Below, in pieces: positions 9,821 through 24,531 of a stretch of 64,000 nt of DNA. Made by a program: the position numbers and the translations under genes. The notes under the pieces were generated by a model that saw only the letters and a program-made list of their open reading frames with translations, did no database searches and was not told where the DNA came from. The DNA is from Aureococcus anophagefferens (taxonomy: Eukaryota; Sar; Pelagophyceae; Pelagomonadales; Pelagomonadaceae), in the NCBI RefSeq assembly GCF_000186865.1, contig NW_008705563.1:2011141-2075140 (forward strand). The letters run 5' to 3'. Numbering within the stretch: position 1 is the first letter of the stretch; every line of letters starts with the position of its first letter.

Positions 9821-11553
9821 CTAGAAGCCGACGGTGGGGAAGCCCCCGCAAAAGGCCGCGACCTCGGCCTTGAGGTCCGCGATGGCCTTGGCGTTGTCGC
9901 CCTCGGTGATCTTGCGGCGGAAGTCCTTGAGCTTGCCGCCCTGGGACTTGACGTCGACGGCGATGGCGACGCCCTTGTCGAAGAGGTCGACGACGGTCTC
10001 GAAGTCCGCCTCCGCGAAGCCGCGGGACGTCAGCGCCGGCGCGCCCATGCGAACCTGGGCAGCACAAGGGTGATTCAACGTCGCTTCAACGTGAATGTTC
10101 CGCGCGCGCGCGTCACGAGAAAAACATCCACGCGTCGAGACCGTTCCGAGAGATGATCGCTCGTCCAAAAATTAGCCGAAACGAGTGGAAAACGGCCGAG
10201 ATGGGAGCCTTTGAAGTTGGGAATTTCGCTCTCTTGTGCTGCCCTGATGCGAACCCCCGACGGCGTGAGCGCGGACTTGTCGCCCGGCACCGTGTTCTTG
10301 TTGAGGGCGATGTTCGCGAGCTCGAGGACGGCCTCGACGCGGGCGCCGTCGATCTTGCGGCTCTTCTTGAGGTCCACGAGCACGAGGTGGTTGTCCGTGC
10401 CGCCGGACACGAGCGAGTAGCCGAGGTCGCCGAGCCGCTTCTCCATGGCCTTGGAGTTGGCCAGGACCTGCTCCTGGTAGGCCTTGTACTCCGGCGTCGT
10501 CGCCTGCTTGAGGGCCGTCGCCAGCGCCGCGATGGTGTGGTTGTGGGGGCCGCCCTGGAGGCCCGGGAAGACGGAGAAGTTGATCGCCTCCTCGAAGTCG
10601 TACTCCGTGCCGTCGGCCTTGGCGCCCCTGCGGTAGAAGATCATGGCGCCGCGGGGGCCGCGCAGGGACTTGTGCGTCGTCGTCGTCACGACGTCCGCCG
10701 TGTCGAAGGGCGACGGCACGACGCCCGACGCGACGAGCCCCGAGATGTGCGCCATGTCCGCGAGCAGGTACGCGCCGTTGTCGTCGCAGATCTTGCGCAT
10801 GGCGTCGTAGTCGATGAGGCGCGAGTAGGCCGACGCGCCGGCGATGATCATCTTCGGCCGGTAGAGCGCCGCGTTCGCCGCGAGCGCCTCGTAGTCGATG
10901 AGCCCCGTCGACTCGTCGAGCCGGTAGGGGAACGTCTCGAAGAAGACGGACGTCGCCGAGATCTTCTTCGTCGGCGTCTGGAAGCCGTGGGACAGGTGGC
11001 CGCCGTGGGGCAGGTCCAGGCCCATGACGCGCTCGTGGGGCTGGAGCAGCGCCGTGTAGACCTGGAAGTTCGCGGGCGACCCCGAGAGCGTCTGCACGTT
11101 CACGCCCCACTGCTCCGGGTCGAGGTTGAAGCACTCGAGAGCCCGGTTCTGGCACATGATCTCGACCTTGTCGATGTGCTCGTTGCCGCCGTAGTAGCGC
11201 GCGTTCGGGTAGCCCTCGCTGTACTTGTTCGACATGACGCTGCCGAGCGCGTCGAAGACGCTCTTCGACGTGAAGTTCTCGGACGCGATGAGCACGAGCG
11301 AGTCGCGCTGGCGCACCTTCTCCATCTCGATGATGTCGTAGAGCTCCTTGTCCGTCTCGACGAGGGGCTTGTTCAGCGCCGCGCCCTACGGAAAGCGAGT
11401 GTTTGTACCAGGCCACGTCGATTGCGCGCGGCGATGGGTTCGCGGGCTTTTCGCGGCGATGAGGGCGGCGCGCGACGGTGGACGCACCGAGATGGCGCGC
11501 GCCTCGCCGCGCAGCGCGCGGCCGGCGACTCGCTTGGCGGCGGTGGTGAGCAT
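9821..11553 (-). CDS. SHMT: Serine hydroxymethyltransferase, mitochondrial type
   Basis: A PLP enzyme interconverting serine plus tetrahydrofolate with glycine plus 5,10-methylene-THF; in mitochondria it serves photorespiratory and C1 metabolism. There are three exons. Exon 1 (11553-11488) encodes [20 protein letters not shown], a basic, amphipathic mitochondrial presequence. After a 102-nt intron (11386-11487, donor GTGCGT, acceptor CCGTAG), exon 2 encodes [20 protein letters not shown] and the catalytic core, including the PLP-lysine motif [13 protein letters not shown] and [11 protein letters not shown]. Exon 3 (10054-9821) gives [11 protein letters not shown] to the end. The mature length of about 476 aa fits the family. 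The second intron, 10055-10254, is an introner transposon plus one target-site copy (see that entry). Splicing it out restores the conserved joint [15 protein letters not shown]. Confidence 0.93.
10055..10246 (+). mobile_element. Introner element copy 1 (192-bp non-autonomous transposon forming an intron in SHMT)
   Basis: A 192-bp element flanked by a perfect 8-bp target-site duplication: ATGCGAAC on the plus strand at 10047-10054 and 10247-10254. Its ends are inverted repeats, CTGGGCAGCACAAG on the left and CTTGTGCTGCCCTG on the right. Read in the direction of the SHMT gene, the upstream target copy GTTCGCAT supplies the GT donor and the element end CCCAG supplies the acceptor, so a 200-nt intron results and the protein is unchanged. 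Copy 2 lies at 23488-23679, has the same length and is highly similar internally (for example TTTGAAGTTGGGAATTTCGC). Relative to their host genes the two copies are in opposite orientation. There is no coding capacity for a transposase. Confidence 0.93.
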
Positions 11554-11714
11554 GATCGCGGCGCCGTAGAAGCTGTCGAGCTGCGATTGCACCGAGTGGG
11601 CGTGAGATTGTTGCACTAAACGCAACGATGTTGCCGAACGGGCCCCTGCGCGACGGTCCGGCCCCGGGACGGGGGGCGGGGACGGCGGGCACGGGGGTTC
11701 CGGCACGGTAAATG

Positions 11715-11930
11715 CGCTCAGGGCACGCGGCCCGGCACGGGCCCGGCACGCGGCACGGCACTCGGCACGGGCCCCCGGGCACGGGCCGGGCACGGGCCAC
11801 GCGGCCCGGCACGGGCCCGGCACTCGGCACGGGCCCCGGGCACGGGCCGGGCACGGGCCGGGGAGGCCCGGCACGGGCCCGGCACGGGGCCCCGGGCACG
11901 GCCCGGGCACGGGCCGGGGACGTGGCCGGG
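11715..11930. repeat. GC minisatellite based on GGCACGGGCC
   Basis: About 215 bp made almost only of short imperfect units such as GGCACGGGCC, GGCACGCGGCC and GGCACTCGGCA. They encode meaningless Pro/Gly/Ala/Arg strings on both strands. It lies 160 bp upstream of the SHMT start codon. The remaining sequence between 11554 and 12282 shows no convincing gene. It is GC-rich with one AAAAAAAAGGGAAAAAG tract near 12189, and open frames crossing it lack any family signature. Confidence 0.8.
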
Positions 11931-12282
11931 GACCGCGGCACGCACCGTCGCGCAGGGGCCCCTTGCCGATCGGGCGCGGCGCGCAGCGATCGGACCGGCC
12001 CTTTTTTGGCGGCTGCCCCACGGAGCGTCGGGCAGGGTCGAGAATTCTACCCGAAAAGCCTTCGTACCAAGCCCTCCCCTTTGCCGCACTCCGCGCCCCG
12101 CGCGCCCGCGCTCCCGCGCTGCCGCACGAAGAACGGCTTCCACCGCAGCGACGCAGCGACCCTCGAGACAGACACGAAACCCCGAGCAGCAAAAAAAAGG
12201 GAAAAAGAGGCATGTGTAGACAGACAGGGGGAGCGGCGCGCCGCGGGCGTCCGCGGGCGGAGGGCGGTTTTCCCGGCTCCGT

Positions 12283-22968: not shown

Positions 22969-24531
22969 ATGGCCGACGAAGCGGACAAGGAGATCGCGGA
23001 CGACGACCTCGTCGACTACGACGACGACGACGTCGAGGAGCAGGGGGGCGACGAGGCCAAGGAGGCGAAGAAGGGCCACTACGTCGGCATCCACGCGTCG
23101 GGCTTCCGCGACTTCATCCTCAAGCCCGAGTGCCTCCGCGCGGTCGTCGACTGCGGCTTCGAGCACCCGTCCGAGGTGCAGCACGAGTGCATCCCCCAGG
23201 CCGTGCTCGGCATGGACATCATCTGCCAGGCCAAGAGCGGCATGGGCAAGACGGCCGTCTTCGTCCTCGCGACGCTCCACCAGCTCGAGCCCGTCGACGG
23301 CGAGATCTCCGTGCTCGCGCGTCCGCGGCGTTTGGACTGGGCGCGTCGCCGAAACCTCACGCTTGTCTCGTCCCTAGGTCATGTGCCACACGCGCGAGCT
23401 CGCGTTCCAGATCAAGAACGAGTACGCGCGGTTCTCGAAATACCTGCCGGCCGTCAAGGTCGAGGTCTTCTACGGCGGCGTGCCCATCAGGGCAGCACAA
23501 GAATGATTCAACGTCGCTTCAACGTGAGTGTTCCGCGCGCGCGCGTTTCGAAAACAGCACCCACGCTTCGAGAGCGCTCCGAGAGATGATCGCTCGTCCA
23601 AAAATCAGCCGAAACGAGCGGAAAACGACCGAGATAGGAGCCTTTGAAGTTGGGAATTTCGCACCCTTTTGCTGCCCAGGTGCCGATCACGCAGAACAAG
23701 GCGGCGCTCAAGGCGAACACGCCCCACATCGTCGTCGGCACGCCCGGCCGCATCCTGGGGCTCGTCAAGTCCAAGGATCTCGTGCTCGGCAAGCTCAAGC
23801 ACTTTGTGATGGACGAGTGCGACCGCATGCTCGAGGCGCTCGACATGCGCAAGGACATCCAGGAGATCTTCCGCACGACGCCCCACCAGAAGCAGGTCAT
23901 GATGTTCAGCGCGACGCTCTCCAAGGAGATCCGGCCCGTGTGCAAGAAGTTCTGCCAGGACCCCATGGAGATCTACGTCGACGACGACACGAAGCTCACG
24001 CTCCACGGCCTCCAGCAGTACTACGTCAAGCTCCAGGAGGCGGAGAAGAACCGCAAGCTCAACGACTTGTTGGATGCCCTCGACTTCAACCAGGTCGTCA
24101 TCTTCGTGTCCAAGGTCGCGCGCGCGACGGAGCTCGACCGCCTCCTCTGCGAGTGCAACTTCCCCTCCGTGTGCATCCACAGCGGCATGACCCAGGAGGA
24201 GCGCATCACGCGCTACAAGGACTTCAAGGACTTCAAGAAGCGCATCCTCGTGTCCACGGACCTCTTCGGCCGCGGCATCGACATCGAGCGCGTCAACATC
24301 GTCATCAACTACGACTTCCCCGAGGTCAAGGAGGGCGCCGCGCAGACGACGGCGAGCGACCAGTACCTCCACCGCGTCGGCCGCGCCGGCCGCTTCGGCA
24401 CCAAGGGCCTCTCCATCTCCTTCATCTCCTCCAAGGAGGACGCGGAGATCCTCGCGGCCGTCCAGAGCCGCTTCGAGGTCAACGTCTCCGAGCTGCCGGA
24501 CCAGATCGACATCTCCTCCTACATGTCCTAG
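22969..24531 (+). CDS. UAP56: DEAD-box RNA helicase UAP56/Sub2 (DDX39)
   Basis: A spliceosome-assembly and mRNA-export ATPase of the TREX complex. Motifs in order: Q-motif [14 protein letters not shown], motif [11 protein letters not shown], Ia region [18 protein letters not shown], motif II DECD, motif III SATL, then [11 protein letters not shown] and [13 protein letters not shown], ending with the diagnostic [13 protein letters not shown]. Three exons give about 433 aa: 22969-23316, 23378-23479 and 23680-24531. Intron 1 (23317-23377) leaves the invariant [10 protein letters not shown] intact only if its donor is GCGCGT rather than GT. Intron 2 (23480-23679) is an introner transposon plus one target-site copy. 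An acidic start ([17 protein letters not shown]) is usual for the family. Confidence 0.95.
23317..23377 (+). other. GC-AG intron in UAP56
   Basis: A 61-nt intron whose removal restores [10 protein letters not shown], invariant in the family. The donor reads CTC/GCGCGTCC and the acceptor CCCTAG. The only nearby GT donor (GTGCTC) would delete two conserved residues. Confidence 0.7.
23488..23679 (+). mobile_element. Introner element copy 2 (192-bp transposon forming an intron in UAP56)
   Basis: Same length (192 bp) and same plus-strand orientation as copy 1 at 10055, but relative to the host gene it is reversed. Flanking 8-bp target copies are GTGCCCAT (23480-23487) and GTGCCGAT (23680-23687), with one mismatch. 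The ends are CAGGGCAGCACAAG and CTTTTGCTGCCCAG; the right repeat has diverged slightly. The left target copy provides the GT donor and the element provides the CAG acceptor, giving a 200-nt intron at 23480-23679 in phase 0 between FYGG and VPITQNK. It is non-coding and non-autonomous. Confidence 0.93.

Follow-up and report, generated by a model that had tools for sequence, protein, structure and literature searches.

The insertion in the gene for serine hydroxymethyltransferase (SHMT) of Aureococcus anophagefferens is almost certainly an introner, that is, a non-autonomous cut-and-paste DNA transposon (MITE) which, to judge from its sequence, would have become a spliceosomal intron on landing. 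As a kind, the introners of this alga are already known. What looks new is a detail of their architecture: the interior of the element is found in either orientation, whereas the position of its splicing signals does not change. No other mass source of new introns is as well documented as introners, and the SHMT copy provides a clean example, with every boundary readable, in the gene of a conserved enzyme.

Structure of the insertion and its host gene

The plus strand of the window, by which we mean the whole 64,000-nucleotide stretch analyzed, reads ATGCGAAC, a 192-bp element and a second ATGCGAAC, the two target copies being equal at 8/8 bases (Table 1). The element ends, CTGGGCAGCACAAG and CTTGTGCTGCCCTG, form a 14-bp inverted repeat in which 13 of the 14 bases pair. 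The sole mismatch is at position 2, and this difference in the second base is what makes the AG at the 3' side. In gene sense, the junctions are GTTCGCAT/CAGGGCAGC...GCTGCCCAG/GTTCGCAT, or, with the ends written at greater length, GTTCGCAT, CAGGGCAGCACAAG...CTTGTGCTGCCCAG, GTTCGCAT. The earlier note had described a 192-bp element with imperfect inverted ends of 14 bp between perfect 8-bp target copies, and this arrangement can be read directly at 10047-10254. It had also proposed that one target copy supplies GT and the element end AG. In agreement with this, excision of 200 nt, comprising the first target copy and the element, is predicted to join TCG GGG to GTT CGC ATG in phase 0, which would restore both the SHMT frame and the conserved junction.

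Table 1. Positions in the window of the two elements, the predicted SHMT intron and the flanking coding sequence.
Feature	Position	Strand	Basis or remark
Downstream SHMT exon, 77 codons and stop	9821..10054	-	Pfam SHMT, spliced translation
Target copy retained in the SHMT exon (GTTCGCAT in gene sense), where V-R-M begins	10047..10054	-	Read directly; encodes conserved SHMT residues
Introner element, 192 bp, body type A, gene-sense ends CA...AG	10055..10246	-	
Predicted phase-0 spliceosomal intron, 200 nt, GT...AG	10055..10254	-	Sequence-based prediction
Terminal inverted repeat, intron 3' end in gene sense, ends GCCCAG (predicted 3' splice site)	10055..10068	-	End pattern: 1,489 genome matches
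Terminal inverted repeat, 5' side in gene sense (CAGGGCAGCACAAG)	10233..10246	-	End pattern: 1,202 genome matches
Target-site copy becoming the predicted intron 5' end (GT donor)	10247..10254	-	
Upstream SHMT exon, 377 codons	10255..11385	-	Pfam, protein matches
TAG before the upstream SHMT exon	11386-11388	-	Another intron probably ends here
Target copy providing the 5' end (GT donor) of the second predicted intron, GTGCCCAT	23480..23487	+	
Second introner, 192 bp, body type B, splice-sense ends CA...AG	23488..23679	+	
Target-site copy kept in the exon, GTGCCGAT, 7/8 equal	23680..23687	+	
Part of DDX39B/Sub2-type (UAP56) helicase gene after the second introner	23680..24402	+	Pfam DEAD and Helicase_C

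Both the Pfam profile and protein relatives identify the minus-strand host gene as SHMT. The upstream exon covers positions 2-374 of the 399 positions of the Pfam SHMT profile (E 7e-186), and the downstream exon matches positions 375-397 with 23 residues (E 7e-4; 18.9 bits, which is below the family cut-off of 27). Seven SHMT relatives were compared, and all of them are continuous across the junction with small variations. The best named hit of the upstream exon, a glycine hydroxymethyltransferase protein model from A. anophagefferens (P0003), likewise spans the junction. Its identity is 90% over the exon by BLASTP and 100%, rounded, in the alignment, with one difference noticed; the BLASTP value is lower because this gene model is without two stretches inside the exon. 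A second public protein (P0001), from a contig of 2,659 bp, is a 99%-identical SHMT that begins at the first Met of the exon and continues through the junction. This is perhaps an allele without the introner; alternatively, its gene call may have been intron-aware. On the 5' side of the SHMT gene, at 11640-11960, the window contains a GC-rich array of GGCACGGGCCC-like repeats.

When the window was scanned for exact 8-bp duplications flanking elements of 60-1,500 bp with at least 10/12 inverted end bases, there were 12 hits including the SHMT introner, as compared to 0, 2, 1, 1 and 1 hits in five 3-mer-block shuffles. The remaining 11 hits are GC-rich, for which reason the scan is not decisive by itself and the decision lies with repetition across the genome. 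A search of the window against Rfam at gathering scores gave no matches.

The window contains a second introner, on the plus strand, whose body corresponds to the reverse complement of the SHMT copy's body at 169/188 bases. With this copy spliced out, the predicted helicase protein aligns to the best DDX39B-type chain (entry name p47) over 241/241 residues with no gap. That the element interrupts the gene for a splicing factor (DDX39B/Sub2-type, UAP56) is a curiosity to which we attach no further claim.

Copies across the genome

The search for further copies covered 49.05 Mb on 86 contigs. With the SHMT element as the query, 2,016 first-look candidates were obtained, and all of the 40 copies that were scored showed at least 93% identity. 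The end pattern bearing the AG (14 bases, two of them two-way positions) matched 759 + 730 = 1,489 times in the genome, as compared to 2 + 4 = 6 matches for the reversed pattern used as the control. The partner end pattern gave 596 + 606 = 1,202 matches, and its control 0 + 1. On contig C1, 58 pairs of exact ends were found 90-260 bp apart and all 58 were polar: 30 CA/AG, 28 CT/TG and none symmetric. Another 24 starts and 22 ends on this contig had no partner, as expected if the partner ends have mutated. These unpaired ends form five pairs at distances of 260-12,000 bp (479 bp and 2.1, 8.6, 10.4 and 10.8 kb). The 2.1-kb pair is not one long element; the ends belong to two introners (L070:248-2359) whose outer ends are 2.1 kb apart and which are spliceable in opposite directions.

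From the fetched loci we curated 132 copies, of which 126 were retained after dropping six with a weak duplication, an odd length or unclear polarity; one of the six (L024) has CA...AG ends and a duplication equal at 3/8 bases. The 8-bp duplication is perfect in 97 of the 126 copies, equal at 7/8 bases in 28 and at 6/8 in one. Further copies with flanking 8-bp duplications are thus present elsewhere in the genome, and it was their absence that the earlier note had said would speak against an introner. Its suggestion that the perfect duplication marks the SHMT insertion as recent did not hold: the same state is common to 97/126 sampled copies, the SHMT body is 97% identical to its closest relative among the sampled copies, and we reject the view that this copy is specially recent. 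With their terminal inverted repeats, identical between both ends over the inner 12 bases in 80/126 copies, and their target duplication of fixed length, the elements have the hallmarks of cut-and-paste MITEs.

The first duplicated base in splice sense is G in 126/126 copies, and the first two are GY in 125/126. The inferred donors are 69 GC, 56 GT and one GA, GC being more common than GT. Polarity was assigned from the terminal AG, so that in the curated copies the G serves as a test and the AG does not. Part of the sample came from a query containing the duplication of the SHMT copy itself; among the 60 of the 126 copies that had been selected otherwise, 20 for their body and 40 for a single end motif, G was found in 60/60 and GY in 59/60.

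Predicted intron behavior of the copies

The effect of removing the predicted intron was assessed from the coding frame, as read from third- versus second-position GC in the copies with at least 240 bases of flank on each side (n = 64). With the predicted intron removed, the frame agrees in 64/64 copies, including all 59 for which the coding signal was strong on both sides, and in 63/64 the coding sequence lies on the strand that the AG end predicts. The same test at random places in the window gave agreement of 72.7% with 0 bases removed, 16.5% with 200 and 64.2% with 201. The splice phases among the 64 copies are 31 in phase 0, eight in phase 1 and 25 in phase 2. Closely similar introns (at least 93% identity in 40/40) hence occur at unrelated genic positions, with coding periodicity on both sides in 64/64. 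Their boundaries appear to coincide with splice sites and the message length would be unchanged, as suggested by the 64 frames and by protein continuity at both window copies.

Coding periodicity around all of the 64 tested copies, 63 of them in the sense direction, is also what would be predicted if an ordinary intron had spread by reverse splicing of its RNA, with no transposase involved. Duplication of the target sequence is not expected from reverse splicing. Fixed 8-bp duplications, for the most part perfect (97/126), and inverted ends therefore speak against this route, as does a longer element with the same ends that has a perfect 8-bp duplication and AG at neither end. We regard reverse splicing as very unlikely. 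Less probable still is that the transposon is not removed and the SHMT allele is broken. What can be said for a broken allele is that removal is deduced from the DNA sequence. It is contradicted by the stop codon that the unspliced SHMT frame meets within the element, by the length of 200 nt, which is not a multiple of three, by the frame being kept on exact excision in 64/64 copies and by the continuity of named SHMT proteins across the junction.

The sequence shows insertion with duplication of 8 bp, an upstream target copy that starts with GY and could act as the 5' splice site, and a far element end, CCCAG, that could act as the 3' splice site. The coding frame is restored when 8 + 192 nt are taken out. 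Removal would be carried out by the spliceosome, and a transposase supplied in trans, recognizing GGGCAG-type ends, would move the element. The AG may go back to a T-to-A change at the last-but-one base in one of the two ends of a symmetric CAGGG...CCCTG element, and the body may be able to invert between the ends with no loss of the intron.

Orientation of the body relative to splice polarity

Whereas the terminal bases of the copies keep to the direction of the gene, the body is seen in both orientations, and this holds even for bodies that are identical over 160 bp. Of 16 copies sharing one such identical body, 14 have one polarity and two (L043 and L058) the other; in these two, the switch affects the two element ends and, along with them, the GY end of the duplication. 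No intermediates with CA...TG or CT...AG ends were found in the 132 copies. On a tree of the bodies of 123 copies, polarity needs three changes, as compared to a mean of 35.6 in 500 shuffles. This number is rough, since 0/102 inner branches were starred and the rows had been picked by similarity or end motif. Polarity is mostly inherited on the body tree, and we reject the idea that the ends are set anew at every jump, which is at odds with three changes against 35.6. The mean pairwise body identity is 0.979 in the derived polarity (53 copies) and 0.933 in the other set (62 copies). Such a difference would be given by a younger burst, and the sampling by similarity contributes to it.

The switched polarity is most simply explained by inversion between the inverted repeats; conversion by another copy would leave the same picture. 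Our tentative proposal, to which we would give rather less than an even chance, is that splice polarity is uncoupled from the body. Relative to the gene, the CA...AG ends would not move; recombination or template switching at the stem formed by the inverted repeats would turn over everything between them in one piece. A single flip would have founded a young, multiplying subfamily, flips back would have occurred, and the family would derive from a symmetric CAGGG...CCCTG element via the single T-to-A change making AG. A reading with close to an even chance is that subfamilies, having evolved by point mutation, differ in the end that bears the AG, and that the body was not inverted. Such subfamilies are suggested by the strong clustering of polarity on the body tree. 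What they do not readily explain is the split of 14 and two among the 16 identical bodies, with both ends switched together, and the lack of CA...TG or CT...AG ends in all 132 copies.

Variation within the ends was also analyzed. In the B-polarity set (52 copies), the end repeats vary at 0.055 and 0.080 per site, mostly at position 9, as compared to 0.016 in the body. Over the 126 copies, end positions 9 and 11 tend to match between the ends (Fisher p 1e-10 and 3e-13, values that include kinship). Correlated change of the inverted repeats along the tree was seen as three and four independent pairs on starred branches, which are too few, and position 9 was as often opposite as alike. If the body does flip between fixed ends, any splice information located elsewhere than in the ends has to work on both strands. 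Bodies in two orientations would then directly test whether an intron of 200 nt depends on internal signals in addition to its ends, and on which, the inversion having already taken place in nature.

Longer symmetric relatives and the search for a mobilizing element

Two longer elements are symmetric. The first, of 479 bp (C1:618576-619054; L069:1577-2055), has a perfect 21-bp inverted repeat, CAGGGCAGCAAAAGGGCGCGA (21/21), and neither a matching 8-bp duplication nor a gene was seen in it. The second, of 502 bp (C32:77547-78048; L073:1501-2002), pairs at 20/21 end bases and is flanked by a perfect 8-bp duplication, CGCGCGAC. The two elements are similar at both ends and different in the middle, and both have CAGGG...CCCTG ends. 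Within each of them, the two ends carry the same variant (CAGCAAAAG or CAGGAAAAG). The introner differs from them by A for T at the last-but-one base of one end, and a single base change may thus have made the 3' splice site from a symmetric CAGGG...CCCTG end. Judging by the symmetric relatives, a transposon may need to change only a little to become an intron. Because the end motif is shared, as is the duplication length in one case, the introner and the longer relatives are likely to have had a common transposase.

It is characteristic of hAT transposons that their ends begin with CAGRG and that their target duplications prefer nTnnnnAn. The introners share with hAT-type MITEs the 8-bp duplication and the CAGGG ends: the 5' side in splice sense begins with CA in 115/126 copies, and CAGGG is present at both ends of the two longer relatives. 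The target preference, in contrast, is absent from the 126 copies, with A at position 7 in 16/126 and T at position 2 in 56/126, the latter count being confounded by the splice donor. The CAGGG start and the 8-bp duplication suggest the hAT superfamily, but the duplications do not show its preference.

The Pfam hAT dimerization profile matched at four loci with 22-24 bits (cut-off 21.4). Judged from the translation, two of these look real and represent one duplicated gene (L036 and L037, on C1 and C13), a hAT-like transposase with an open frame of 344 codons, whose two copies lie within a 5.4-kb stretch that is itself 99.2% identical. On C1 this stretch starts and stops in tandem repeats, and on C13 it continues into N. 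Within 9.9 kb around each hAT-like locus, the end motif was matched singly with two mismatches and never as a pair. We rejected this gene as the partner of the introners, as the 5.4-kb stretch is without a pair of introner ends; no hAT transposase with these ends was found. A KDZ profile search gave no match and, with its control silent as well, is uninformative. The search for an autonomous partner, which took in the pairs of exact ends on C1 at distances of up to 2.1 kb and the surroundings of the hAT-like genes, found none.

Comparison with known introners

Huff et al. (Nature, 2016) reportedly described the introners of A. anophagefferens as non-autonomous DNA transposons that carry one splice site and co-opt the other. 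The earlier note had taken DNA-transposon introners to be established for Aureococcus, and they are indeed described in passages of PMC10228655, PMC7789003 and PMC9481584. Splice-site co-option and insertion in both orientations are credited to Huff et al. 2016 in a passage of PMC10228655. No statement on inversion of the body between fixed ends, or on symmetric longer relatives, was met in the passages of the literature searched, a scope outside which the primary 2016 paper lies.

PMC7789003 states that direct and inverted repeats of constant length are present in every case in the Aureococcus elements and that their splice motifs are canonical, and a passage of PMC9481584 gives a characteristic length of about 210 bp. 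The SHMT introner resembles these elements in its host alga, in its constant-length repeats and, with 200 as compared to about 210, approximately in its length. The canonical splice motifs of that description differ from the 69/126 GC donors in our sample.

Insertions in opposite orientation were allowed for, and mobilizing elements sought, by Gozashti et al. 2022 (PMC9860276). In family 1 of Symbiodinium, according to the legend of their Fig. 2B, the element brings the 3' splice site and the target copy the 5' one. This is the same splice-site logic as in the SHMT introner, but with 4-bp duplications instead of 8 bp. Their Fig. 2F presents family 4 of Aureococcus sp., which brings along both splice sites and lengthens the message by 12 bp, unlike the SHMT introner.
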